NCBI GenBank assembly: GCA_013140465.1
Contig: JABFST010000261.1
Location: 1 to 30,844, forward strand
DNA length: 30,844 nucleotides
Reading direction: 5' to 3'
Source: Methylococcaceae bacterium
GTDB taxonomy: Bacteria > Pseudomonadota > Gammaproteobacteria > Methylococcales > Methylomonadaceae
In this document: one piece after another, positions 6,527-30,778 of the stretch
Layout of the letters: each line of letters begins with the position of its first letter
Numbering within the stretch: position 1 is the first letter of the stretch
Translations under genes and position numbers: made by a program
Notes under the pieces: model-generated
The model's input: only the letters and a program-made list of their open reading frames with translations
Databases searched by the model: none
What the model was told of the DNA's origin: nothing

Positions 6527-8238
<1,712 letters not shown>

Positions 8239-8239
<1 letters not shown>

Positions 8240-9441
8240 TGTCGGCTAGAGAATTTTTAGATAGCATAGAGCCGCATTTTACAAAAGGCGGCCGCTTAGA
8301 GAAGTATTACGGTCTCTATGAGATGGTAGATACTTTCATTTATACACCCTCTGATGTAACACGCGGCACTACGCACGTCCGTGACGGCAACGACCTCAAA
8401 CGGACCATGACTTTTGTGGTGATCGCCACATTGTTTTGCGTGTTGATGGCGATGTACAACACCGGCTACCAAGCCAATTTGGCTATGGAGTCGATGGGTT
8501 TAGAGAAGATTGCCAATTGGCGCAGCATCCCGATGATGATCTTCGGTTACAACCCGATGAATCCCTTCTCTAACTTTGTCCATGGCGCGTTGTACTTTTT
8601 GCCTATTTACATCACCACTTTAGCGGTCGGTGGTGTGTGGGAAGTGTTGTTTGCAACGGTGCGCGGCCATGAAGTCAACGAAGGCTTTTTGGTGTCGTCG
8701 ATGTTGTATGCCTTAATCATGCCGCCCGATATGCCCTTATGGCAGGTCGGTTTGGGCATTTCTTTCGGTATTGTTATCGGTAAGGAAGTCTTTGGCGGTA
8801 CTGGCAAAAACTTTTTAAACCCTGCGTTAACAGGCCGGGCATTTTTATATTTTGCCTATCCTGCGTCTATGACAGGTGACTCTATCTGGGTTGCTGTTGA
8901 CGGCTACACGCGTGCTACGCCCTTAGGGATTGCCGCTAACGGTGGTTTGGATGCGGTTTATGCAGCCAACTATAGCTGGGTACAAAGCTTTTTCGGTTTT
9001 GAACCAGGCTGCTTGGGCGAAACCTCTACCTTGGCAATTTTGCTAGGCGCAGCTTTTCTGTTGTATACCCGCGTTGCCTCTTACCGCATTATGGGCGGTG
9101 TGTTTTTAGGCATGGTGGCAACCTCGGTATTGTTTAATGTGATCGGCAGCGACACCAACCCTATGTTTGCAGTGCCTTGGTATTGGCATTTGACCATGGG
9201 CGGTTTTGCTTTTGGTATGGTTTATATGGCAACCGACCCTGTCAGTGCCGCTATGACCAACGCTGGGCGTTGGGCGTTCGGGATCTTGGTAGGTGGTATG
9301 ACGGTGTTAATCCGTGTAGTCAATCCGGCGTTTCCAGAAGGTATTATGCTGGCAATTTTGTTTTCCAACATGTTTGCGCCAACGATAGATTACTTCGTTA
9401 TTCAGGCCAATATCAGAAGAAGGATGAAACGTCATGCTTGA
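8239..9441 (+). CDS. nqrB: Na+-translocating NADH:quinone reductase subunit B
   Basis: The 400-aa polytopic membrane subunit binds riboflavin and a covalent FMN and forms much of the Na+ pathway. Family landmarks include GYNPMNPFSNFVHGALYFLPIY, GKEVFGGTGKNFLNPALTGR and YMATDPVSAAMTN. The covalent FMN site should be Thr227 in DGYTRATPL (221-229). Here Arg225 stands where the common motif D-G-x-S/T-G-A-T has Gly. GAAGGA lies directly upstream of the start, and the end overlaps nqrC by 8 bases. Function is not in doubt; the flavinylation motif is worth checking. Confidence 0.97.
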
Positions 9442-10369
9442 AAATAAACAATCCAGTAACCCGTTAAACGGTCTTTGTGCGGCTCTGGACAAGAACGAAA
9501 ACTACCAAAAATTTAAAGTTTATCGCGACAAGGTGCTTGCCTTAGGTAACGATAGCTTGGAAAAAACCATCGCCATCGCGGTTTCTTTGTGCTTGGTTTG
9601 TGCGGTGTTGGTTTCCTTTGCTGCGGTTGCCTTAAAACCCCTGCAAGTGGGCAACAAAGCTGCCGACATGAAGAAAAACATTCTCGATGTGGCGGGTTTG
9701 TTGGAAGAAGGCACGAATGTTGATTCTGCGTTTGCCGACAAAATCGAAGCAAAAGTCGTTGATTTGGCAACGGGTGATTACGTTGACAACATCAATGCCG
9801 ACGAATTTGACCAACGCAAGGCGGCAAAAGATCCTGCGCAAAATGTTGCGATTCCTAAAGACAAAGACATTGCCCATATCCGTGTGAAAGCGAAATATGC
9901 CAAAGTGTTTATCGTTAAAGAAGGCGGCGTGACCAAATCGATTATTTTGCCTATGCATGGTTATGGCTTATGGTCTACTTTGTATGGCTTTTTATCGTTG
10001 GATGCCGACGGTCAAACTGTCCAAAGCATCAACTTTTATGACCAAGCCGAAACTCCGGGCTTGGGTGGTGAAGTGGTCAACCCTAACTGGCGCGCGTTGT
10101 GGAAAGGCAAAAAAGTCTATGCCGAAACCGACCAACCTTCTTTAGAAAAAGGCTTGATTGCCGAAGCGGATATTGGTGAACCAGCGTTAGCCTTAATCAA
10201 AGGCTCAGTGGATACCAGCAAACCAGGTGCGCAATACCAAGTGGACGGTTTAGCAGGTGCAACTTTAACCAGCAATGGTGTCAGCAATCTGGTTAGATAC
10301 TGGATGGGTGAAGAAGGTTTTGCGCCGTATTTAAAGAAAGTAAGAACTGTTAAAGGGGCTAAGTCATGA
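9434..10369 (+). CDS. nqrC: Na+-translocating NADH:quinone reductase subunit C
   Basis: NqrC carries one membrane helix (here about 43-68, [20 protein letters not shown]) and a periplasmic FMN-binding domain. The second covalent FMN is expected on Thr277 of [13 protein letters not shown] (271-283); the position that is usually Ser is Ala274. The protein is 311 aa, longer than the roughly 250-265 aa typical of the family. About 35 extra residues precede the helix. The start at 9434 is kept because AGGA lies about nine bases upstream and the 8-bp overlap with nqrB is typical; a GTG near residue 34 ([12 protein letters not shown]) would give a more standard N-terminus. It overlaps nqrD by 4 bases (ATGA). 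Confidence 0.95.
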
Positions 10370-11046
10370 GCGCAGTATTAAATGATGAAACAAAAAAAGT
10401 ATTAGTCACGCCTTTAGTCAACGACAATCCCATCACCTTGCAGGTGTTGGGTATTTGTTCGGCCTTGGCGGTGACTTCGCAAATGTCCACATCACTGATT
10501 ATGGCTTTGGCTTTAACCTTGGTGACGGCATTTTCAAGTGCGGCAATCAGTGCGATCAGAAACCACATTCCCAGCAGCATTCGGATTATTGTGCAAATGA
10601 CCATTATTGCGTCATTGGTTATCGTGGTGGATCAAATCCTAAAAGCGTTTGCTTATGATGTCAGCAAGCAATTATCGGTTTTTGTGGGTTTGATTATCAC
10701 CAACTGTATCGTTATGGGCCGTGCTGAAGGCTATGCGATGAAAAACCCGCCGTTAGAAAGCTTTATGGACGGTATCGGTAACGGTTTGGGTTATAGCTTG
10801 ATTTTGATTATCGTAGCTTTCTTTAGGGAAACTTTAGGCTCAGGCAAATTGCTGGGCATCGAAGTGTTCAAATTAGTCAAAGACGGTGGTTGGTATGATC
10901 CTAACGGTCTGATGTTATTGCCACCTAGCGCATTTTTTATTATTGGTTTGATTATCTGGGGCGTTCGTCAATGGAAACCAGGCCAAGCGGAAAAATCAGA
11001 GTATAAAATCATGTCGATTGCTCATGGTGAAGGGGGACATCACTAA
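10366..11046 (+). CDS. nqrD: Na+-translocating NADH:quinone reductase subunit D
   Basis: The 226-aa integral membrane protein has about six hydrophobic helices. Cys31 (LGICSALAV) and Cys114 ([13 protein letters not shown]) match the two cysteines that, with two from NqrE, hold the iron or [2Fe-2S] centre at the middle of the membrane in the Vibrio complex. [16 protein letters not shown] and [12 protein letters not shown] are family signatures. The ATG overlaps the nqrC stop by 4 bases and the stop shares one base with nqrE, which implies strict coupling of these two partner subunits. NqrD is homologous to RnfE, but the surrounding nqrA-F operon makes NqrD the right call. Confidence 0.96.
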
Positions 11047-11654
11047 TGGAAGCTTATATTAGTTTATTTGTAAAAGCGGTATTTATTGAGAACCTCGCGC
11101 TGTCGTTTTTCTTAGGCATGTGTACTTTTATCGCGGTATCCAAAAAAATTGCCACGGCAATGGGCTTGGGTGTGGCGGTTATGGTGGTGCAAGCGATTAC
11201 CGTACCTGCCAATAACGTGGTTTACCATGCTTTATTGAAAGAAGACGCCTTGTCTTGGATAGGCATCACCGGCGTTGATTTAAGCTTTTTGGCCTTGTTA
11301 AGCTGTATCGGTATGATCGCGGCTTTAGTACAAATTTTGGAAATGATCTTAGATAAGTTCTTTCCGGCTTTGTACCACGCTTTAGGCGTGTTCTTGCCGC
11401 TGATTACAGTAAACTGCGCGATTTTAGGCGGCAGTTTGTTCATGATCGAACGCGATTATAACTTTGGCGAAAGCGTCACTTATGGTGTCGGCAGTGGTTT
11501 GGGCTGGGCATTAGCTATTACCGTTATGGCGGGTGTGCGCGAAAAACTTAAATACAGTGATATTCCAGCCGGTTTGCAAGGCTTGGGCATTACTTTTATC
11601 ACCGCAGGTCTGATGTCGCTTGGCTTCATGGCTTTCTCTGGAATCCAACTTTAA
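11046..11654 (+). CDS. nqrE: Na+-translocating NADH:quinone reductase subunit E
   Basis: The 202-aa membrane protein is homologous to RnfA and is the inverted-topology partner of NqrD. Cys26 ([12 protein letters not shown]) and Cys124 ([14 protein letters not shown]) are the expected ligands of the shared Fe centre. Other signatures are [22 protein letters not shown] and [13 protein letters not shown]. The start overlaps the nqrD stop by one base; 12 bases separate its stop from nqrF, with AAGGTAG as the next ribosome-binding site. Confidence 0.97.
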
Positions 11655-11666
11655 GAAGGTAGAGTA

Positions 11667-12887
11667 ATGCTGGAAATTCTATTAGGGATCATCATTTTTA
11701 CGGCGTTTGTTATTGCCTTGGTGTTTGTCATCATCGGTGCGAAAAGCAAATTGGTCGCAGAAGGGGATGTTGAGATCCTGATCAATAATGAAAAGAAAAT
11801 TCATGTACCCGTGGGTTCAAAACTTTTAACCGCCTTGGCTGACAACGGTTTGTTCGTGTCATCAGCCTGTGGCGGCGGTGGTACTTGCGCACAATGCCGC
11901 GTGGTCGTGCATTCTGGCGGCGGTGAAATCTTGCCGACTGAGTTGACCCACATCACCAAACGTGAAGCGGCACATGGCGAACGTCTGTCTTGCCAAGTTT
12001 CTGTCAAACACAATATGAGCATTGAAGTCGAAGACGACGTGTTCGGTGTTAAAAAATGGGAATGCACCGTTAAGTCCAACAATAACGTGGCAACCTTTAT
12101 TAAAGAACTGGTTTTAGATTTGCCTGAAGGCGAAGCCATCAATTATCGCGCAGGTGGTTATATTCAAATCGAATGTCCGCCACACGTTTCTAAATACAGC
12201 GATTTTGCCGTAGAAGAACGTTTCCGTGAAGATTGGGACAAGTTCAAATTGTGGCGTTATGTGTCTGAAGTGAAAGAACCTGCGCTACGCGCCTACTCGA
12301 TGGCGAGTTACCCCGAAGAAAAAGAAATCATGCTGAACGTGCGTATTGCTACGCCACCGCCAAGCGCACCCGATACCGTGCCGCCAGGCATCATGTCTTC
12401 CTACATCTTCGGCTTAAAACCAGGCGATAAATGTATTATCTCTGGCCCTTACGGCGAGTTTTATGCAAAAGACACCGAAGCGGAAATGGTGTTTGTCGGT
12501 GGTGGTGCCGGTATGGCCCCTATGCGTTCACACATTTTCGACTTGTTAAGAAGGTTGAAGTCCAAACGCAAAATTACTTTCTGGTACGGTGCACGTAGCA
12601 AACGTGAAATGTTCTATGTAGAAGATTTCGACATGTTGGCGCGTGAAAATGAAAACTTCACTTGGCATGTGGCTTTGTCTGACCCATTACCCGATGACAA
12701 TTGGGATGGCTACAAAGGCTTTATCCATAACGTGCTTTTTAATGAGTTTATTAAAAGCCACCCAGCCCCAGAAGATTGCGAGTTTTACATGTGCGGCCCG
12801 CCAATCATGAATACTTCTGTAATCAATATGTTGGTGGAAAATGGTGTAGAGCCTGAAAACATCATGTTAGACGACTTCGGCGGCTAA
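11667..12887 (+). CDS. nqrF: Na+-translocating NADH:quinone reductase subunit F
   Basis: This 406-aa subunit is where NADH electrons enter. Residues 3-25 form an N-terminal membrane anchor. A [2Fe-2S] ferredoxin domain follows with Cys68, Cys74, Cys77 ([16 protein letters not shown]) and Cys109 (LSCQ). The FAD site is RAYSMAS (208-214). The NADH-binding region has [14 protein letters not shown] (276-289), [13 protein letters not shown] and [11 protein letters not shown] near the C-terminus. The length and residues are standard. It is the last gene of the nqr transcript: a strong terminator follows 40 bases after the stop. The apbE gene often found close by in nqr loci is absent. Confidence 0.98.
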
Positions 12888-18655: not shown

Positions 18656-20680
18656 TTATTTAATTTGTGGGTTGTCCGATGTTGAAATACGGTTTAACCG
18701 TTCCAGCAATACCTGCCAATCAACACGCGGATTATAGCCGATTACGTTGATTCTAGGCAGACCGCCACCCGTAATAATGGCGTAACCCTCAGGTGTTGCC
18801 GACACCCCGGACAGTTGGCAAACCCCGTTTAACAACACACAGCCTAAACCGATTTGGTCATAACCAAAGCTTGCAAACAGGTTTAAAAAACTTCTGGACA
18901 GAATATCCGTTGCCCCGCCACCGCCAATACTGGCGATATTTTTAACGGCTTTTTGGCTGATGCGGTGACGGGAGTTGTCGCCTTTAGGCGTGCCTAACCA
19001 CGCCTCAAAACTCACGGGCTGCCAGTCCGACATCACTAAATCCCGTACATAACCCGACAATTGCCCGGTCATATTGCCAAAGGCAAAAGTAGAGGTCAGC
19101 TGTGCCAAATCTAGTTTGTTGATGGCAATATCGCCAGAAAATTGCGGTGCAGCCCCGAATAAATCACTCGCTTGCAGGTCGGTGAGCGACACTTCGCCCG
19201 TAAACACCTTAACCGTTAATGCCCCGCCCAAGTGCAGGGTGTTGTGCCGATAAGCCACACTAGGAATAGTACCGCTGAGCGTGCCTGCCAACGGTGTCCA
19301 GTGTAAGGCGCGGCTGATGCGGCTGAGCGACAAGGCCTGCATATCGCCGACAAAATAAAAGGCCGATTCTTGTCCGGCTTTGCTTTGCCACGCAAAACGC
19401 TTAACCGCAAGCTGTCCGCCAAAAACAGGCAACCGCGCGGGCTGCACGAGCTTAACCTGATGGGCGCGGGTTAAAAACACCAGTTCCGCCGAGTCTACAG
19501 GGATTTGATACAGTTGTAAGTGTTGCCAAGCAAATTTTGACGGGATTGCAAACTTTTCGTCTGCCGACCAATGGATCACACCCTGACCGCCCAGCAATTG
19601 GAAACGCCCGGCGCTATCGTTAATCAGCACCTGCGTAGGGATAGCCGTAACGGTTTGCAAGGCATTATTGGCTATCGAAAACTGCGCGTTTAAACGACCG
19701 CCAAAACTGATGCCATCCTCAGCCGTTGCCGTTAAAAACGGCTGTAAATACCGTTCGGTGCTTTGCCGGAGATCGTTGCTTTGTAGCGCGACATGGGCGT
19801 TCGCCAGCTTAAGCGTTTGTTTGCCATCGACCAAAGCGTCGCCGCTCAGCGTCAACGCCTGATCCTGATAAGTAAACAGCGGTATCGCCACGGTTTTTAG
19901 GCGCGGATCCCAAACACCTGCTGCCGCCAAACTTAAGCCCCGACCTTGTGCCGCCAAAAACAGCGGTTCGAGATACAACGAGCCTTCGGTCACTGTGGTT
20001 TGGTTTTGCCAATGCCAACGCGTATTTCGGTATTGCCCGTTTACCAGCATGGTCAGCGTCATGTTTTCACAGGCATAACGACCGTCTGGCGATTGTGCGC
20101 TTATGTTGTGTGCGCTTGCCGTCAAACTAAACTTTTCCAACTGTGCGCCATTGCCCGATGCCAACAGTTTGACATCGCTATGGCCTGCGCTGGTGGGCAT
20201 GACCGCCCCGCCCGCTAGCTTTTGCATTAACACGGTATCCAGCCCGGTCGCGCTGAGCGATAACTGCCATTGCGGGCCTTGCGCGTTCAGTGTTAAGGCG
20301 ACATCGCCACCTGCCAAACGTAAATGGCTGAGGCTAATGCGGCTATGCTGCGGGTGGATTTCTACAAAAAACTGTGCGGACGGCGATTGCCAACGCGCCG
20401 AATGGACGCTGGCACGCCCTTGTGTGCAAGAGATGGTTTGGCCTTGCCAACTGAATTTGGCACAGCGGATATTGACCAGCGTCAGCTCGTCAAAAGGTTT
20501 GGGCAAGCGGATTTGCCGGATAGTGAGCTGAAGTTGACGGGCTTCGTTAAAGCTCAATTGAATGCCATCGATATGCCAGTTGGCGGTGGTGATGGTTTGG
20601 ATCTGCAAGGACAACGGGGCGAACGCGGCGGTTTGCGTGCTGATAGCCAGCAACACCAGCATGAAAAAATGCCTGTACAT
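18656..20680 (-). CDS. ydbH: YdbH-like AsmA-superfamily envelope protein
   Basis: The 674-aa protein has an N-terminal hydrophobic segment (MYRHFFMLVLLAISTQTAAFA) that may be a signal peptide or anchor. A long beta-rich body of repeated short strands follows, as in AsmA/TamB-type bridge proteins. The C-terminal block (QKAVKNIASIGGGGATDILSRSFLNLFASFGYDQIGLGCVLLNGVC ... TGGGLPRINVIGYNPRVDW) is the YdbH signature; two Cys there may pair. YdbH, TamB and YhdP carry phospholipid between inner and outer membrane in E. coli, where YdbH is about 880 aa, so this one is shorter. The first gene of the ydbH-DUF1318-rlmD run, it has AGGAG nine bases before the ATG. The function is assigned by family and by the ydbL-like neighbour. 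Confidence 0.82.
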   Translation of the reverse strand: MYRHFFMLVLLAISTQTAAFAPLSLQIQTITTANWHIDGIQLSFNEARQLQLTIRQIRLPKPFDELTLVNIRCAKFSWQGQTISCTQGRASVHSARWQSPSAQFFVEIHPQHSRISLSHLRLAGGDVALTLNAQGPQWQLSLSATGLDTVLMQKLAGGAVMPTSAGHSDVKLLASGNGAQLEKFSLTASAHNISAQSPDGRYACENMTLTMLVNGQYRNTRWHWQNQTTVTEGSLYLEPLFLAAQGRGLSLAAAGVWDPRLKTVAIPLFTYQDQALTLSGDALVDGKQTLKLANAHVALQSNDLRQSTERYLQPFLTATAEDGISFGGRLNAQFSIANNALQTVTAIPTQVLINDSAGRFQLLGGQGVIHWSADEKFAIPSKFAWQHLQLYQIPVDSAELVFLTRAHQVKLVQPARLPVFGGQLAVKRFAWQSKAGQESAFYFVGDMQALSLSRISRALHWTPLAGTLSGTIPSVAYRHNTLHLGGALTVKVFTGEVSLTDLQASDLFGAAPQFSGDIAINKLDLAQLTSTFAFGNMTGQLSGYVRDLVMSDWQPVSFEAWLGTPKGDNSRHRISQKAVKNIASIGGGGATDILSRSFLNLFASFGYDQIGLGCVLLNGVCQLSGVSATPEGYAIITGGGLPRINVIGYNPRVDWQVLLERLNRISTSDNPQIK

Positions 20681-23716: not shown

Positions 23717-26569
23717 TTAGCCATTGCTGATGCCTTGTTCCAGCAAGTCAAGCTGCTCATCTGAAAACGCCGAGTATTTTGCTTGCCATTCTGAGGTTTG
23801 GCTAACTTTGCTGACTTGCACTGCCGTCACTTTGTATTCGGGGCAGTTAGTCGCCCAGTCCGAGTTATCGGTAGTGATGACGTTTGCGCCCGATTCGGGG
23901 AAGTGGAAGGTTGTATAAACCACGCCCGGTTGTACACGGTCGGTGATTAAGGCACGCAATACAGTTTCACCGGTACGGCTTTTGATACCGACCCAATCGT
24001 CGGTTTTAATGCCACGGTCTTCGGCATCGTGCGGGTGCAGCTCTAAACGGTCTTCGGAATGCCAAGCCACGTTATCGGTACGGCGGGTTTGCGCACCGAC
24101 ATTGTATTGCGACAATATCCGCCCAGTCGTTAAGATCAACGGGAATTTAGGCGTGACGCGTTCTTCTGTGGCAACGTATTGGGTCAGCATAAACAAACCT
24201 TTGCCGTTATCGCGCATAAACTCTTGTTCGTGCATGATCGGTGTGCCGATAGACGCATCATCGTAGCAAGGCCATTGGATACTGCCTAGTTCATCAATTT
24301 TTTCATAACTGACACCGTTAAAAGTAGGGGTCAGCGCCGCAATTTCCGCCATGATTTCTGATGGGTGGCTGTAGTTCATTGGATAACCCAAAGCATTGGA
24401 CAGCAATTGGGTGATTTCCCAATCTTGATAACCTGCTAGTGGTGTCATGACTTTACGCACGGGCGAAATACGGCGTTCGGCGTTAGTAAACGTGCCATTT
24501 TTTTCTAAGAAAGACGCACCTGGCAAGAACACATGGGCAAATTTGGCGGTTTCGTTCAGGAATATATCTTGTACGATCACGCATTCCATCGCGCGTAAGG
24601 CCGAATGGACGTGTTGGGTATCTGGATCAGATTGGGCAATGTCTTCGCCTTCGCAGTACAAGCCCATAAAGCTTTTGTCCATCGCGGCATCAAACATATT
24701 CGGGATACGCAGACCCGGTTCGGTGCTGAGTTCCGCATGCCATGCTTGTTCAAACAATTGGTGGGTGGCAGGGTCGGAGACATGGCGGTAGCCGGGGAAT
24801 TCATGCGGGAATGAACCCATGTCACAAGAGCCTTGCACGTTGTTTTGTCCACGCAAGGGGTTTACACCCACGCCGTCACGGCCTAAATTGCCTGTTGCCA
24901 TCGCCATATTGGCGATGCCGATAACCATAGTTGAGCCTTGGCTGTGTTCGGTAACGCCTAAGCCATAATAAATGGCGGCATTGTCGGCGGTCGCATACAG
25001 TCTTGCTGCGGCGCGCAATTCGCTGGCGGGTACGCCTGTGATGGTTTCGGTGGCTTCTGGCGAATGCTGTTCTTGGGCGATAAAAGTTTCCCATTTGGCG
25101 AAAGAGGCCACATCGCAACGGGCGTTGACAAATGCTTCATCCATTAAACCTTCAGTCACGATGACGTGGGCGAAGGCATTGATTAATGCGACGTTAGTGC
25201 CTGGGCGTAATTTCAAATGATAATTGGCGGTAACGTGCGGGCTGTTTTTGACCAGATCAATTTCGCGTGGATCAACGACTATCAGTTTTGCACCTTGGCG
25301 CAAACGTTTTTTCATCTGCGAGCCAAACACCGGATGACCATCTGTTGGGTTAGCGCCAATAACGATAATGACATCGGCTTTCATGACCGAATCAAAATCT
25401 TGTGTGCCTGAAGATTCACCAAAGGTTTGTTTTAAGCCATAACCCGTTGGCGAATGGCAAACGCGGGCGCAAGTATCAACGTTATTGTTACCAAAACCTG
25501 CGCGTATCAATTTTTGCATGATGTACACTTCTTCGTTGGTGCAGCGCGAAGAGGTGATACCGCCTATAGAATCTTTGCCGTATTTGGCTTGGATGCGTTT
25601 TAATTCGGAAGCCGCATGGTTGATGGCTTCTTCCCAGCTGACTTCTTGCCACGCATCTTTAATGCTGGCGCGAATCATTGGCTTAGTGATACTGTCTTTA
25701 TGGGTGGCATAACCAAAAGCAAAACGGCCTTTAACGCAAGAATGCCCGTGGTTGGCTTTGCCGTCTTTATGCGGCACCATGCGGATGACTTGTTCGCCTT
25801 TCATTTCAGCGCGGAATGAACAACCGACACCGCAATACGCGCAAGTGGTGACGATAGCGTGTTCGGGCTGACCGTGGTCGATCACCGATTTTTCCATTAA
25901 GGTCGCAGTTGGGCACGCTTGCACGCACGCACCGCAAGAAACGCATTCAGAATCCATAAACGCTTCATTTTGGCCGGGCGACACTTTAGAATCAAAACCG
26001 CGACCATCTATGGTTAAGGCAAAAGTGCCTTGGGTTTCTTCACAGGCTCTGACGCAACGCGAGCAAACAATACATTTGCTGGGGTCAAAACTAAAATACG
26101 GGTTGCTTTGGTCTTTTACTGCGTCTAAATGCGTGGTGACAGGTTTGTACCGCACTTCGCGCAAACCAACCGCCCCCGCCATGTCTTGCAGTTCGCAATC
26201 GCCATTGGCAGAACACGTCAAGCAATCTAAGGGATGGTCAGAGATATACAATTCCATCACCCCACGGCGCACATCCGCCAGCCTTTGGTTTTGCGTGACC
26301 ACTTTCATACCTTCAGCAACAGGCGTGGTACATGAAGCAGGCATCCCACGGCCCCCTTCAATTTGCACAACACAAAGACGGCAAGAACCAAACGGCTCCA
26401 CGCTATCGGTAGCGCACAGCTTCGGGATGTCGATACCAATACTTGCCGCCGCGCGCATGACGGACGTACCCACAGGCGCAGTGACTTTAAAGCCGTCTAT
26501 TTCTAAGGTGACGGATTGGGCGGCAACACGGGCGGGCGTGCCAAAATCTTGTTCTTTATTCATGCTCAT
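23717..26569 (-). CDS. fdsA: NAD-dependent formate dehydrogenase alpha subunit (Mo/W-bisPGD)
   Basis: The 950-aa catalytic subunit oxidises formate to CO2. From the N-terminus it has a [2Fe-2S] site (Cys52, 63, 66, 80), a His-Cys3 [4Fe-4S] site (His112, Cys116, 119, 125), two [4Fe-4S] clusters (Cys166/169/172/176 and Cys209/212/215/219) and the [4Fe-4S] of the molybdopterin domain (Cys243, 246, 250, 278). The metal ligand is Cys371 in CARVCHSPTGYG, so this is a Cys enzyme, not a selenocysteine one. The C-terminal molybdopterin dinucleotide-binding domain includes LTTGRILSQYNVGAQTRRTD. The length and cluster set match the soluble FdsABG type. GAGGA lies eight bases before the ATG. Upstream on the transcript is the three-gene cassette instead of fdsB directly. 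Confidence 0.97.
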   Translation of the reverse strand: MSMNKEQDFGTPARVAAQSVTLEIDGFKVTAPVGTSVMRAAASIGIDIPKLCATDSVEPFGSCRLCVVQIEGGRGMPASCTTPVAEGMKVVTQNQRLADVRRGVMELYISDHPLDCLTCSANGDCELQDMAGAVGLREVRYKPVTTHLDAVKDQSNPYFSFDPSKCIVCSRCVRACEETQGTFALTIDGRGFDSKVSPGQNEAFMDSECVSCGACVQACPTATLMEKSVIDHGQPEHAIVTTCAYCGVGCSFRAEMKGEQVIRMVPHKDGKANHGHSCVKGRFAFGYATHKDSITKPMIRASIKDAWQEVSWEEAINHAASELKRIQAKYGKDSIGGITSSRCTNEEVYIMQKLIRAGFGNNNVDTCARVCHSPTGYGLKQTFGESSGTQDFDSVMKADVIIVIGANPTDGHPVFGSQMKKRLRQGAKLIVVDPREIDLVKNSPHVTANYHLKLRPGTNVALINAFAHVIVTEGLMDEAFVNARCDVASFAKWETFIAQEQHSPEATETITGVPASELRAAARLYATADNAAIYYGLGVTEHSQGSTMVIGIANMAMATGNLGRDGVGVNPLRGQNNVQGSCDMGSFPHEFPGYRHVSDPATHQLFEQAWHAELSTEPGLRIPNMFDAAMDKSFMGLYCEGEDIAQSDPDTQHVHSALRAMECVIVQDIFLNETAKFAHVFLPGASFLEKNGTFTNAERRISPVRKVMTPLAGYQDWEITQLLSNALGYPMNYSHPSEIMAEIAALTPTFNGVSYEKIDELGSIQWPCYDDASIGTPIMHEQEFMRDNGKGLFMLTQYVATEERVTPKFPLILTTGRILSQYNVGAQTRRTDNVAWHSEDRLELHPHDAEDRGIKTDDWVGIKSRTGETVLRALITDRVQPGVVYTTFHFPESGANVITTDNSDWATNCPEYKVTAVQVSKVSQTSEWQAKYSAFSDEQLDLLEQGISNG

Positions 26570-26587
26570 GGGGTTGTCCTCGTGTCA

Positions 26588-27274
26588 TTATCGGGCTACG
26601 TTGGCTTCGTTTATTGCCATTTTTTCGGTGTGTTCAATTATTGAATCAAGTATTTGTTGAGCTGGTTTTTCTAACGCTTTTAAACCATGTGGTGGACTAG
26701 GCAAAGTTTCCGCTGCCGCAACTTCTTCAGGTTTAAATCTAAAAATACTTTCTTCACATTTTTTATATTGGGCATTTAAATAATCAGAATCAATATGTCC
26801 TTTTAAAATACTTAATATTTTGATCTGCCAATTTCTATCTTCTTCCCGATACTCCCAGTTTTCAAAATCAATAATGGGATAATCTTGCGAATGAAAAACT
26901 TGTATAACGAAAGTAGCACAAGTCAAACCACCATGCTTTTCGTGAGAAATAAAATTGCCATCCTTAGAAAAGCTAGTGCCATCAATACATATGCCGTATG
27001 GAATCGGCGAGCGATCTTGGCTTGATCTAAAAATAGATGCACAAACTGTTGCTAAATGTATTTTATTTAAATTATCGAGAGGTATATCTAGCCAGAGGTA
27101 TTTTTTATTTGGGGACTCTTTTCTTAAATCAAAATGCCAAGCCAAGTGTAAAAATTTGATTTCCAAATCTTCATCCATGAATAAGAATCCAATATGTTGT
27201 TGTTTTTGCCGACTATCAGGTCTGCCAATGGCGATACATATTCCCTCTATGTTGTCAATAGAATCTATAATCAT
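26588..27274 (-). CDS. Unknown protein, possible permuted papain-like cysteine hydrolase
   Basis: I do not recognise this 228-aa protein by name. Near the N-terminus it has an H-I-G-F-L-F strand (His27) and then KFLHLAWHFDLR (His43, His47). Later KHGGLTCATFVIQVF places Cys119 at the start of a helix. A His strand followed by C-x-x-F-V is the order seen in permuted papain/NlpC-P60-like folds (YaeF/YiiX, LRAT), so a cysteine peptidase, amidase or acyltransferase is possible. That is inference from motif style. The C-terminal 60 residues are helical and charged. There is no signal peptide, so it is cytoplasmic. The start is taken as ATG 27274; a TTG lies just before it. The gene is A+T-rich, 7 bases after the preceding cassette gene and 18 bases before fdsA. 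Confidence 0.75.
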   Translation of the reverse strand: MIIDSIDNIEGICIAIGRPDSRQKQQHIGFLFMDEDLEIKFLHLAWHFDLRKESPNKKYLWLDIPLDNLNKIHLATVCASIFRSSQDRSPIPYGICIDGTSFSKDGNFISHEKHGGLTCATFVIQVFHSQDYPIIDFENWEYREEDRNWQIKILSILKGHIDSDYLNAQYKKCEESIFRFKPEEVAAAETLPSPPHGLKALEKPAQQILDSIIEHTEKMAINEANVAR

Positions 27275-27281
27275 CAAATTT

Positions 27282-27785
27282 TTATAACAGCCCTTTCAAT
27301 ATAGCATTGCTATCGTGTTTTCTATTTGATAACTCTGTTTTTGCACTAGCCAGAAGTCTTGTCCAATAAGGTAATTCATTCTTATGTGAAGAAGTAAGTC
27401 TTAGTAAACCAACAAGCAGTACATCACTTAAATCATTTACTCGAACCTGTTTTAAAAACTCATTACATAGATTAAGCTCACCATGAGAAATTAATTTATT
27501 TATTTCCATATAAAAGGGTAGTAGCGATTTAACATCATTAAGCTTTGATGCAGACTGTAAAAATTCTACCACCCAAGGGGCTTTCCCAATTAATTCATTA
27601 AATCCTTTTGAAGGCTCTCTTACCTTAGTTGAATTTGCCCCAATATGATTTGAAAAACTTAATTCAGCACAACTAACAGATTTGGAGTTATTAATAAAAT
27701 AATCACTTGGTTTACCCTCAACTGTTTGTGAATAACAAGCTGGTATATATGGTGTTGGCTGAAAATCAACTGATTGTGAAATCAT
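27282..27785 (-). CDS. Unknown protein, middle gene of the cassette
   Basis: This 167-aa soluble protein is not recognised. The first 60 residues look extended and low in charge (SQSVDFQPTPYIPACYSQTVEG). The remainder reads as a bundle of helices (GFNELIGKAPWVVEFLQSAS, SLLPFYMEINKLISHGELN, LSDVLLVGLLRLTSSHKNELPYWTRLLASAKTEL). There is no catalytic motif, signal peptide or membrane helix. The ATG overlaps the stop of the TIGR04255 gene by 4 bases (ATGA), so the two are made together, which suggests physical partners. The helical part could be an adaptor or immunity-like domain, which is speculation. Base composition is clearly A+T-rich compared with fdsA and fdsB on either side. Confidence 0.75.
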   Translation of the reverse strand: MISQSVDFQPTPYIPACYSQTVEGKPSDYFINNSKSVSCAELSFSNHIGANSTKVREPSKGFNELIGKAPWVVEFLQSASKLNDVKSLLPFYMEINKLISHGELNLCNEFLKQVRVNDLSDVLLVGLLRLTSSHKNELPYWTRLLASAKTELSNRKHDSNAILKGLL

Positions 27786-28546
27786 TTGTATGCACTCGAT
27801 TTAACTAAAGTTTCAAATGAATTTTTTTGAATATCATGCGCCTGTTCTAGCCACGCCATAATTTCATTACTAACATCGCCATTCAAACAATCATTTGCTT
27901 TAGATTGGACGATGGTTTCCATTAGCAATCCTGGCTTGTCGTAAATAATTGCATTGGCAATTCGGATAACAATAGTTCCTTTTGGCGTTAAAGTTTCAAT
28001 ATTCATTGTAATATTGACATCAGTTTTGTCGCGATTAGCACCAGTATAACTAAAAAATGAATCAGGAAGCTTAGAGCTTACATGAAAATGCTGATCCAAA
28101 TATTCCGCAGTGGACATCTTTTCAGGAAAAAATGCATCTTGGTAACGTAAAGACAACGATAAGGTGTCTTTAACATTGTTTAGTTTATCCGCATCAGCTT
28201 GCTTATAAATTTCAAGCCCCATTTCAATTGCAGCTTTAAATGAATTCCATTCGTACCCTTCTTTGACTTGGTTGACAGTAAAAACACCTAACCCAACTTG
28301 AAAACAAGGGAAATCATGCTGTTGTTTTCTAAAACGATGGGAAACTAGCAGGGGCATCATCATGAGCCCTTGATTTTGCTGAATATTTTGTGTAACAGCA
28401 TAGCCTTTTGAAGCAGCAGCCGCACTTATTTTTCCAGCAAATAATGATTGCTCTTCTTGGGTATAAGAAAATTGCCCTGGAGCGAACTCACCCCACTGCA
28501 ATTCAAAAATAGCTTCAATAAGAGGGGCGTTCTGTAATGTTGTCAT
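27782..28546 (-). CDS. TIGR04255-family protein
   Basis: The 254-aa protein begins TTLQNAPLIEAIFELQWGEF, the hallmark opening of TIGR04255, followed at about 80-110 by the conserved CFQVGLGVFTVNQVKEGYEWNSFK block and later by LSLRYQDAFF. Family members are 230-270 aa, occur sporadically across bacteria and have no established biochemical function as far as I know. There is no membrane segment or signal peptide. It is the first gene of a three-gene, A+T-rich cassette placed 73 bases after fdsB. The ribosome-binding site is weak (GAG near the ATG), so it may rely on fds transcription or a promoter in the 73-bp gap. Family assignment is confident; function is unknown. Confidence 0.88.
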   Translation of the reverse strand: MTTLQNAPLIEAIFELQWGEFAPGQFSYTQEEQSLFAGKISAAAASKGYAVTQNIQQNQGLMMMPLLVSHRFRKQQHDFPCFQVGLGVFTVNQVKEGYEWNSFKAAIEMGLEIYKQADADKLNNVKDTLSLSLRYQDAFFPEKMSTAEYLDQHFHVSSKLPDSFFSYTGANRDKTDVNITMNIETLTPKGTIVIRIANAIIYDKPGLLMETIVQSKANDCLNGDVSNEIMAWLEQAHDIQKNSFETLVKSSAYK

Positions 28547-28619
28547 TGTCTCAATTCTATATTTAGAGGACTATCTGCCATTGTAAAACTAAGTGGTTCT
28601 AAAAAATCAACCAAACTGA

Positions 28620-30158
28620 TTACACATCCACCCCAAAATCTTCAGGGAAATGGTTTAATGCGCTCAACACAGGATACGGTGTCATCCCACCTAAGGCGCA
28701 TAAAGAGCCATTAAGCAAGGTGTCGCACAACGAGCGCAACAACACCACATTTTTATCGCGGTCCACATTATTGATGATGTCGTCCAACACTTCGGTGCCG
28801 CGTGTTGAGCCTATCCGGCATGGAGTGCATTTGCCGCACGATTCCACTGCGCAGAACTCCATGTTGTAACGCGCTAATGCTGCCATATCGGCGGTGTCAT
28901 CAAACGCGACTACGCCGCCGTGGCCTAACACTGTCCAATTGGCGGCGAAGGCTTCGTAATCTAGGGGCGTGTCAAATTGCGATTCAGGCAAATAAGCACC
29001 TAAAGGGCCGCCGACTTGCACGGCTTTTATCGGACGGCCTGTTGCCGAACCGCCGCCAAAATCGTAGAGCAATTCGCGTAGCGTCATACCAAAGGCAATT
29101 TCGACCAAGCCTGTGTATTTTAAGTTTCCAGCAAGCTGTAATGGCAATGTACCGCGTGATCGGCCTAAGCCAAAATCCCGGTAATAATCGCCGCCTTTAT
29201 CTAAAATAATGGGTACAGAAGCCAAGGATATAACATTATTGACGATGGTTGGTTTGCCAAACAAGCCGCTGATGGCGGGTAGTGGCGGTTTAAAACGCAC
29301 TAAGCCGCGTTTGCCTTCCAAGCTTTCCATCAGGGAGGTTTCTTCTCCGCAAATATACGCACCAGCACCTAAACGCACTTCCAGATGGAACGCATTGCCG
29401 CTGCCTAGAATGTCGTCGCCCAAATAACCGGCTGCATAAGCGGCGGCTATGGCGGCATTTAAAGCTTTGTGGGCGTGGGGATATTCGACGCGCAAATAGA
29501 TGTAGCCTTGGTTTGCGCCGACAGCTAAACCTGCGATGGTCATGCCTTCGATCAATACAAACGGGTCGCCTTCCATGACCATGCGGTCAGAGAAGGTGCC
29601 GGAATCGCCTTCGTCAGCATTACAAATAATGTATTTTTGTTCAGACGGGGTGTTTAAAACGGTGTTCCATTTAATGCCAGTAGGAAACGCCGCGCCGCCG
29701 CGACCACGCAAACCGGAGTCGGTAACGGCTTTGACAATCTCAGCTTGCGATTGTTTTAAGGCATTGTTTAGGCCGCGATAGCCGTCATGTGCCAAATAAT
29801 CATCCAAGCTGATCGGGTCAGTGATGCCTATGCGGGCAAACGTCAAACGCTGTTGTTTTTTAAGGTAAGGCAGTTCTTCAGTCAAACCTAAATATAAGGG
29901 ATGGGCTTGTCCAGTCAAAAAATCGGCGGCGAACAAACTGGCAACATCGCTGGTTTGCACGGGGCCGTAAGCGACGCGGCCTTGTTCGGTAGCAACTTCA
30001 ACCAGTGTTTCTAGCCAGTACAAACCTCTGGAACCATTACGCACCAAATTAAGGGCAATGCCCCGTTGTGCGGCTTCTTTAACTATAGCCGCAGCAACAC
30101 GGTCAGCACCAATGGAAACCGCACTGGAATCGCACGGTACAAAAACAGTAATACTCAT
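28620..30158 (-). CDS. fdsB: NAD-dependent formate dehydrogenase beta subunit (flavoprotein)
   Basis: The 512-aa NuoF-like subunit carries FMN and one [4Fe-4S] cluster and reduces NAD+ with electrons from FdsA. An N-terminal thioredoxin-like domain (about 1-95) is fused to the diaphorase part, as is usual for FdsB. Visible motifs are [17 protein letters not shown] (148-164) for NAD(H)/[18 protein letters not shown] (178-192), [13 protein letters not shown] (264-276) and the cluster ligands Cys441, Cys444, Cys447 ([12 protein letters not shown]) with Cys487 (SLCALGG). GAGGAG precedes the ATG, which overlaps the fdsG stop by 4 bases. Its 3' neighbour is the TIGR04255 cassette rather than fdsA. 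Confidence 0.97.
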
Positions 30159-30622
30159 GCTAACTCCTCAATAATCGCGTCAAAACTGTCGGCAGAAACC
30201 CGACCAAAAACGTCTTCGTCAATTTGGATGGCGGGCGAACAAGCGCAATTGCCTAAGCAATATACGGGTTCTAAGGAAAATTGACCGTCAGCAGTGGTTT
30301 CGTGGTAATCAATACCTAACTTGGCTTGGACATGGGCTTCCAAGGCTTTGCCACCCATTGCTTGGCACGATTCGGCACGGCACAAATGGATAGTGTGCTG
30401 GCCTGGCGGGGTGTCGCGGAAATAATGGTAAAAGCTGATGACACCATGCACTTCGGCGCGTGACAAATTAAGCCCTTTAGCGATGGCGGGGACAGTTTCG
30501 GCGGGTACATATCCCAAGGCATCTTGAATGCCGTGCAGGATTGGTAAAAGGGCGCCGGGCTTATGTTTTAGGGTGTCGATGATGTCCTGCACGGTCGCTT
30601 GCATACTGCTGGTATCGGTCAT
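30155..30622 (-). CDS. fdsG: NAD-dependent formate dehydrogenase gamma subunit
   Basis: The 155-aa NuoE-like subunit has a thioredoxin fold with a [2Fe-2S] cluster held by Cys81, Cys86 ([13 protein letters not shown]) and Cys122, Cys126 ([11 protein letters not shown]). The N-terminal helical part ([32 protein letters not shown]) is typical. The start at 30622 ([14 protein letters not shown]) gives the standard length and has GAGAGACC upstream; an upstream in-frame start at 30685 would add an atypical tail. It is the first gene of the operon and overlaps fdsB by 4 bases. Confidence 0.96.
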
Positions 30623-30778
30623 TTTGGTCTCTCTATGGCAGTTCCATTTGTTGGCTGACAATATAACAGCGTATGCTGGCGGCACAAGCCGAGCATAGGA
30701 TGAGAGTTAAATTGCCACGCCATTTGGTGACGCAAAACACCCATGAAAAGGTGCTTAGGTCAGTAAAATATGGGCTGT

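Follow-up and report, generated by a model that had tools for sequence, protein, structure and literature searches.

A three-gene unit inserted at the end of fdsB in a Methylococcaceae bacterium carries a putative adaptor–hydrolase core with exchangeable partners

The 30,844-nucleotide stretch of contig JABFST010000261.1 (positions 1 to 30,844, forward strand; hereafter the window) of the Methylococcaceae bacterium assembly GCA_013140465.1 carries three genes, g1, g2, and g3, inserted between the formate dehydrogenase genes fdsB and fdsA. Comparison with loci in other genomes reveals that the constant core of this unit is the g2–g3 pair and that the TIGR04255 protein encoded by g1 is only its commonest partner. 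We consider it probable that the unit is a modular conflict system in which a sensor, an adaptor, and a hydrolase would act together, with phages as the likeliest adversary. A preliminary description of the window had read the trio as an A+T-rich cassette inserted into the fds operon, with a possible role in defence, as a toxin-type system, or in protein modification, an interpretation that is partly supported by the present analysis.

Results

Organization of the trio

All three genes lie on the minus strand. The first, g1 (27782–28546), encodes a 254-residue putative sensor that scores 70.5 bits in the NCBIfam search against TIGR04255 (curated cut-off 30 bits), with residues 4–252 aligned to positions 2–247 of the 252-position profile. 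The second, g2 (27282–27785), encodes a putative adaptor of 167 residues for which family-library searches of the trio proteins returned no match. In the g2 model (mean pLDDT 74), the N-terminal third is poorly ordered and of low confidence, residues 38–55 fall below 50, and helices run from residue 60 onward; the 86-residue C-terminal helical domain, g2C, is encoded at 27285–27542. The third, g3 (26588–27274 from an ATG start, or to 27277 from a TTG start), encodes the putative effector. As described before, the genes are tightly packed: g1 and g2 overlap by 4 bp, 7 bp separate g2 from g3 (ATG start), and 18 bp separate g3 from fdsA. The preliminary reading of the products as a TIGR04255 protein, a helical protein, and a cysteine hydrolase agrees with the NCBIfam score and with the models of g2 and g3. 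A search of PADLOC-DB 2.0.0 returned no family at E ≤ 5 for any of the three. The same genome also holds a second, distant TIGR04255–g2–g3 set (L100:4634-6621, G000:C277) with a g3 about 30% identical; it has close relatives in G007, G022, G459, and G640.

A constant g2–g3 core

The comparison covered 54 g3 loci, comprising 45 from a scan of a genome collection, 5 further genomic loci (among them the second, distant set of the window's own genome), 3 plasmids, and the window. At every one of these, across many phyla and the three plasmids, the open reading frame (ORF) directly before g3 ends in g2C. The g2C model was built from 25 of the loci, the other 29 being independent of it, and the weakest match is that of L063 (E 5.5e-4). 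The spacing between the g2C-bearing ORF and g3 ranges from −83 to +33 bp in 48 loci, with ORF starts called mechanically. The 55 locus records of the unit elsewhere (two of them repeats) contain no match to an fds gene. The trio is therefore not confined to the fds locus, and the earlier suggestion that it forms a functional unit holds insofar as it recurs without fds; however, the constant part is g2–g3, whereas TIGR04255 is exchangeable.

The distribution of the unit is sporadic. In a survey of the order (301 genomes), g2C was found in 11 and g3 in 8, and in a phylum survey (398 genomes) each was found in 4, the window's genome being counted in both. Three genomes have g2C without g3, two of which (G030 and G600) hold short g2C pieces only. 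In the third, G011 (L109, G011:C161), the TIGR04255 and g2 frames are open, and g3 lacks 552 bp that the corresponding G007 locus (L099) retains, a pattern to be expected if g3 accounts for the cost of the unit.

Exchange of the first partner

The first gene encodes a TIGR04255 protein at 28 of the 54 loci, a label that rests on NCBIfam for the window and for 5 of the 10 other upstream proteins tested, and on profiles made here for the others. Three further families of about 205–265 residues take this position: class II at 8 loci, class III at 4, and class IV at 3. In the comparisons run, none of the three resembled TIGR04255, whereas the two TIGR04255 subgroups found each other at 96.9%. Elsewhere g2C forms the end of a larger protein. 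It closes an HTH plus M78 protein at two loci (L072 and L077, one M78 match lying below the Pfam cut-off), a 1286-residue ResIII-like protein beside an N6/N4 DNA methylase at one locus (ResIII just below cut-off), and a 1301-residue MmeI-type restriction-modification protein at another. The two restriction-modification fusions (L061:1-6561 and L063:1578-6151) belong to the same Polyangiaceae metagenome-assembled genome (MAG), and each is followed by a g3 gene. At one locus a ParA-like gene precedes g2, and 6 of the 54 loci have no assigned partner class.

When partner classes are mapped onto the g3 tree, at least 11 changes are required, where 6 would be the minimum (rows without a partner class left out). 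The backbone of this tree is weak, with 24 of 51 inner branches open; the firm branches alone force 4 changes between TIGR04255 and all other rows. Judged by record titles, groups on firm branches span more than one phylum, one uniting Methylococcales with Sulfurovum and Sulfuricurvum and another joining Planctomycetota to Verrucomicrobium and a gammaproteobacterial MAG.

Predicted fold and catalytic residues of g3

The g3 model has a permuted papain-like fold of the NlpC/P60 type. Conservation was read from an alignment of 54 rows, with residues in a 229-residue numbering and codons on the minus strand. The putative catalytic His28 (27194–27196) is present in all 54 rows, as is Cys120 (26918–26920), the putative nucleophile in the motif GLTCATFV, although the pattern used in the genome scan selected in part for the latter. 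The putative catalytic Tyr94 (26996–26998) is kept in 53 of the 54 rows. Position 44 (27146–27148 for His44) is His in 44 rows, Asp in 8, Asn in 1, and Glu in 1, and we infer that it provides the third, polar catalytic residue. The resulting order, with His first and Cys after it together with a polar residue and a Tyr, fits the permuted NlpC/P60 enzymes as presented in the available part of PMC3142127.

The fold and these residues suggest that g3 is a permuted NlpC/P60 cysteine hydrolase with a conserved catalytic set. The claim is limited to the fold and the catalytic set rather than a named family because no Pfam family was matched at E ≤ 1 by the window g3; the g3 proteins of L033 and L065 likewise gave no match, and that of L076 gave a chance match only. 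Compared with the permuted enzymes of known structure (PDB 2if6 and 3kw0; PMC3142127, available part), g3 shares the model fold, the His before the Cys, and the polar third residue, and with 3kw0 also a Tyr before the Cys at similar spacing. It differs in matching no Pfam family, in always lying directly behind a g2C-bearing ORF, and in having its own conserved RF(K/R)PEE region and a long C-terminal helix.

Plasmids, viral contigs, and neighbourhoods

In a plasmid scan the unit was found on 3 of 72,556 records. On Rhizobium pCB3060_2 (L132:358-9230), a TIGR04255–g2–g3 trio lies 0.5 kb from, and after, a multiubiquitin/ThiF/DUF6527 set, a ubiquitin-like set that we take to be a defence system. 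Genes for a dGTPase, a PfkB-type protein, and a deazaguanine synthase lie upstream of this trio, and DUF87 and DUF4297 genes (annotated as anti-phage-associated) lie 6–8 kb downstream, with insertion-sequence transposases between. The other two records are Moraxellaceae plasmids of 6.6 and 6.9 kb; besides the set, they have genes for replication and mobilisation and few others. Four viral contigs have the unit: L135 shows the order integrase, class II partner, g2, g3; L134 has g2 and g3 behind a phage lysozyme gene, at the end of its contig; and L133 and L136 are truncated just before g3. The unit was not found in the GenBank phages searched.

Carriage on such small plasmids and prophage-type contigs would also suit a toxin–antitoxin or addiction module, in which g3 would be a toxin held by g2 (and g1) that kills cells losing the module, with no phage sensor involved; that g3 can be deleted, as in G011, fits as well. 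A first partner that is large, exchangeable, and at times a restriction-modification protein would be odd for a plain antitoxin, however, and in G011 it is the putative antitoxin side that outlives the toxin. We regard this explanation as unlikely.

A tRNA-Met gene lies 0.4–0.6 kb before the trio at two loci (L037:4014-4090 and L038:4244-4320), and tRNA genes also occur upstream of it in L040, L066, L070, and L074; these genes are possible integration sites. Some loci have the unit after dnaG–rpoD-type ORFs, tRNA genes, or an MCH gene, and housekeeping enzymes also have the g3 fold. Both observations would accord with a role in ordinary physiology, regulatory or protein-modifying, for example in the cleavage of acylated proteins, and with horizontal spread of a unit that is not a conflict system. 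The sporadic distribution, the exchange of partners, and the occurrence on plasmids and prophage-type contigs argue against such a role, to which we give little credence.

Insertion into the end of fdsB

Comparison of the fdsB–fdsA junction covered 39 relatives: 31 of the 34 further genomes available for the genus, 1 of the family, and 7 of the order. Distances run from where the FdsB match ends to the start of fdsA. The two genes are adjacent in 38 of the 39, 41–167 bp apart: 41–48 bp in 32 relatives and 83–167 bp in the remaining 6, which belong to other families of the order. The trio is absent from this position in all 39. Adjacency of fdsB and fdsA is thus the ancestral state, and the insertion proposed earlier is real and lineage-specific.

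The insertion altered its host gene. In many close relatives the FdsB tail resembles DDKANAA, whereas the window FdsB ends in FGVDV, a single Val codon plus a stop standing in place of the final six codons of fdsB (28620–30158, minus strand). The missing tail is found 1.9 kb on and still in frame, where it forms the end of g3 (EANVAR) and is followed by the fdsA leader. This right junction (26577–26605, minus strand) therefore contains the displaced ancestral end of fdsB, namely its last codons, the stop region, and the fdsA leader, and now supplies the g3 C-terminus. It is identical to the fdsB end of a typical relative at 25 of 29 bases, as against 18 of 29 at the next-best place in the window on either strand. 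The TGA stop of the relatives' fdsB is CGA in the window, and g3 terminates at the next TAA. The g3 relative P0007 agrees with the window protein through MAINE and then diverges. The in-frame displaced tail and the divergence of P0007 after MAINE indicate that insertion of the unit took place within the last codons of fdsB and cost few bases. The earlier view that the cassette rides on the operon without disrupting it needs correction, as fdsB lost its last six codons. A transposon or integron cassette was considered and set aside: no end repeats were found in 26400–28800, and family searches revealed no recombinase among the three trio genes.

The closest genome by FdsB, G002 (99% identical; 93% DNA identity across fdsB–fdsG), has a 744-bp junction with a different insert, a DUF29 gene (E 3.7e-48; L104:5957-6694, G002:C29) preceded by what appears by eye to be a broken HicB-type gene. 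The G002 and window FdsB proteins are shortened at the same codon; either a shared first insertion was later replaced or the site is a favoured one. The presence of an insert at this site in G002 as well, and the correct frame of the fdsB end at the right junction, make it very improbable that two genomes were fused by faulty assembly or binning, even though the assembly comprises 507 contigs and is 83% complete. The g2 and g1 clusters, moreover, list 4 and 5 contigs, respectively, which may or may not contain the junctions.

The trio runs with the fds genes, and no terminator-like site was found in its region; shared transcripts are therefore likely, and the trio is probably co-transcribed with fds. 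Its position between fdsB and fdsA on the same strand, together with the lack of such a site, could suggest an accessory of formate dehydrogenase, acquired as an aid to formate oxidation. We hold this to be the least credible of the explanations, as 38 of the 39 relatives have fds without the trio and no other locus of the unit has fdsA or fdsB.

Base composition

The earlier G+C counts are reproduced, 17 of 60 at 27241–27300 in the trio against 33 of 60 at 24841–24900 in fdsA. The trio as a whole has a G+C fraction of 0.347, compared with 0.492 in the remaining window, and lies about 6 standard deviations below the mean of 498 overlapping 1.9-kb windows outside it (mean 0.492, standard deviation 0.025, minimum 0.439). 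However, g3-type loci are A+T-richer than their own flanks in 45 of 47 cases, by 7.5 points on average. Low G+C is thus a typical feature of the gene set itself and therefore weak evidence for a recent foreign origin.

Other genes in the window

Family searches agree with the earlier identification of fdsG, fdsB, fdsA, fdhD, and fdsD. Downstream of the trio, fdsA (23717–26569, minus strand) encodes the formate dehydrogenase alpha subunit (TIGR01591, 926.6 bits), and fdsG (30155–30685, minus strand; NF004638, 248 bits; start codon unrefined) forms the upstream end of the operon. The plus strand carries an Nqr-type sodium pump operon at 6890–12887, with matches to NqrA, NqrB, an FMN-binding subunit, and an NAD/FAD/2Fe-2S subunit. 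Two minus-strand ORFs, 18656–20680 (674 residues) and 551–2152 (533 residues), have no Pfam match at E ≤ 1e-5.

Discussion

The recurrence of the unit without fds, the exchange of partners that include restriction-modification and HTH–M78 proteins, the sporadic distribution, the plasmids and prophage-type contigs, the fold and catalytic set of g3, and the loss of most of g3 in G011 together favour a modular conflict system. In such a system, g1 would bind or sense an infection-linked trigger, and g2, which would hold or activate g3, would relay the signal through its C-terminal helical domain. A cytoplasmic g3 would then cleave acyl lipids, as a first guess, or a protein target, and this cleavage would arrest the infected cell. 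Where g2C is fused, the detector would be the restriction or metallopeptidase protein itself.

Several known systems invite comparison. In the available part of PMC12994826, the permuted NlpC/P60 toxins of the Tox-Act1/TseH type are secretion-system effectors with immunity proteins, and Tox-Act1 is a phospholipase. The proposed role of g3 would likewise place a permuted NlpC/P60 enzyme in a conflict setting; those toxins are secreted, whereas nothing was seen that points to secretion of g3, for which no dedicated test was made. In EAD-type systems, as covered by the available parts of PMC7159879 and PMC8195603, a small non-catalytic domain likewise connects varied proteins to effectors, but EADs are present on both partners and accompany NTPase cores, whereas g2C occurs once per locus and the trio has no NTPase core. 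The defining arrangement, with the same domain on sensor and effector, was not found, the best g2C match in 48 loci being the ORF before g3 and never the g3 ORF itself.

As far as we have searched, this predicted adaptor–hydrolase system appears to be widespread, modular, and undescribed. TIGR04255 was not mentioned in the literature searched, and no description of a g2–g3 pair was evident from titles and the starts of abstracts among the searched literature on permuted NlpC/P60 or papain-like conflict or anti-phage effectors; most subscription papers lay outside these searches, so that the negatives do not prove novelty. The window itself provides a clean example of a catabolic operon capturing a three-gene unit that takes over the end of its host gene, and the wider set ties a putative permuted NlpC/P60 enzyme to swappable, defence-like partners that include restriction enzymes.

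More tentatively, at somewhat below an even chance in our estimation, g2C–g3 could be a general plug-in self-destruct module recruited by unrelated detectors, here TIGR04255, the three other families, the HTH–metallopeptidase proteins, and the type III-like and MmeI-type restriction-modification proteins. In that case a restriction enzyme could call a second, probably membrane-directed response. The conflict system proposed here would give TIGR04255, a family without an assigned function of which g1 is a member by score and for which the unit offers a constant context at 28 of the 54 g3 loci, a testable hypothesis of function, and if the plug-in module is real, TIGR04255 proteins would make up a large class of infection sensors that has gone unrecognised.
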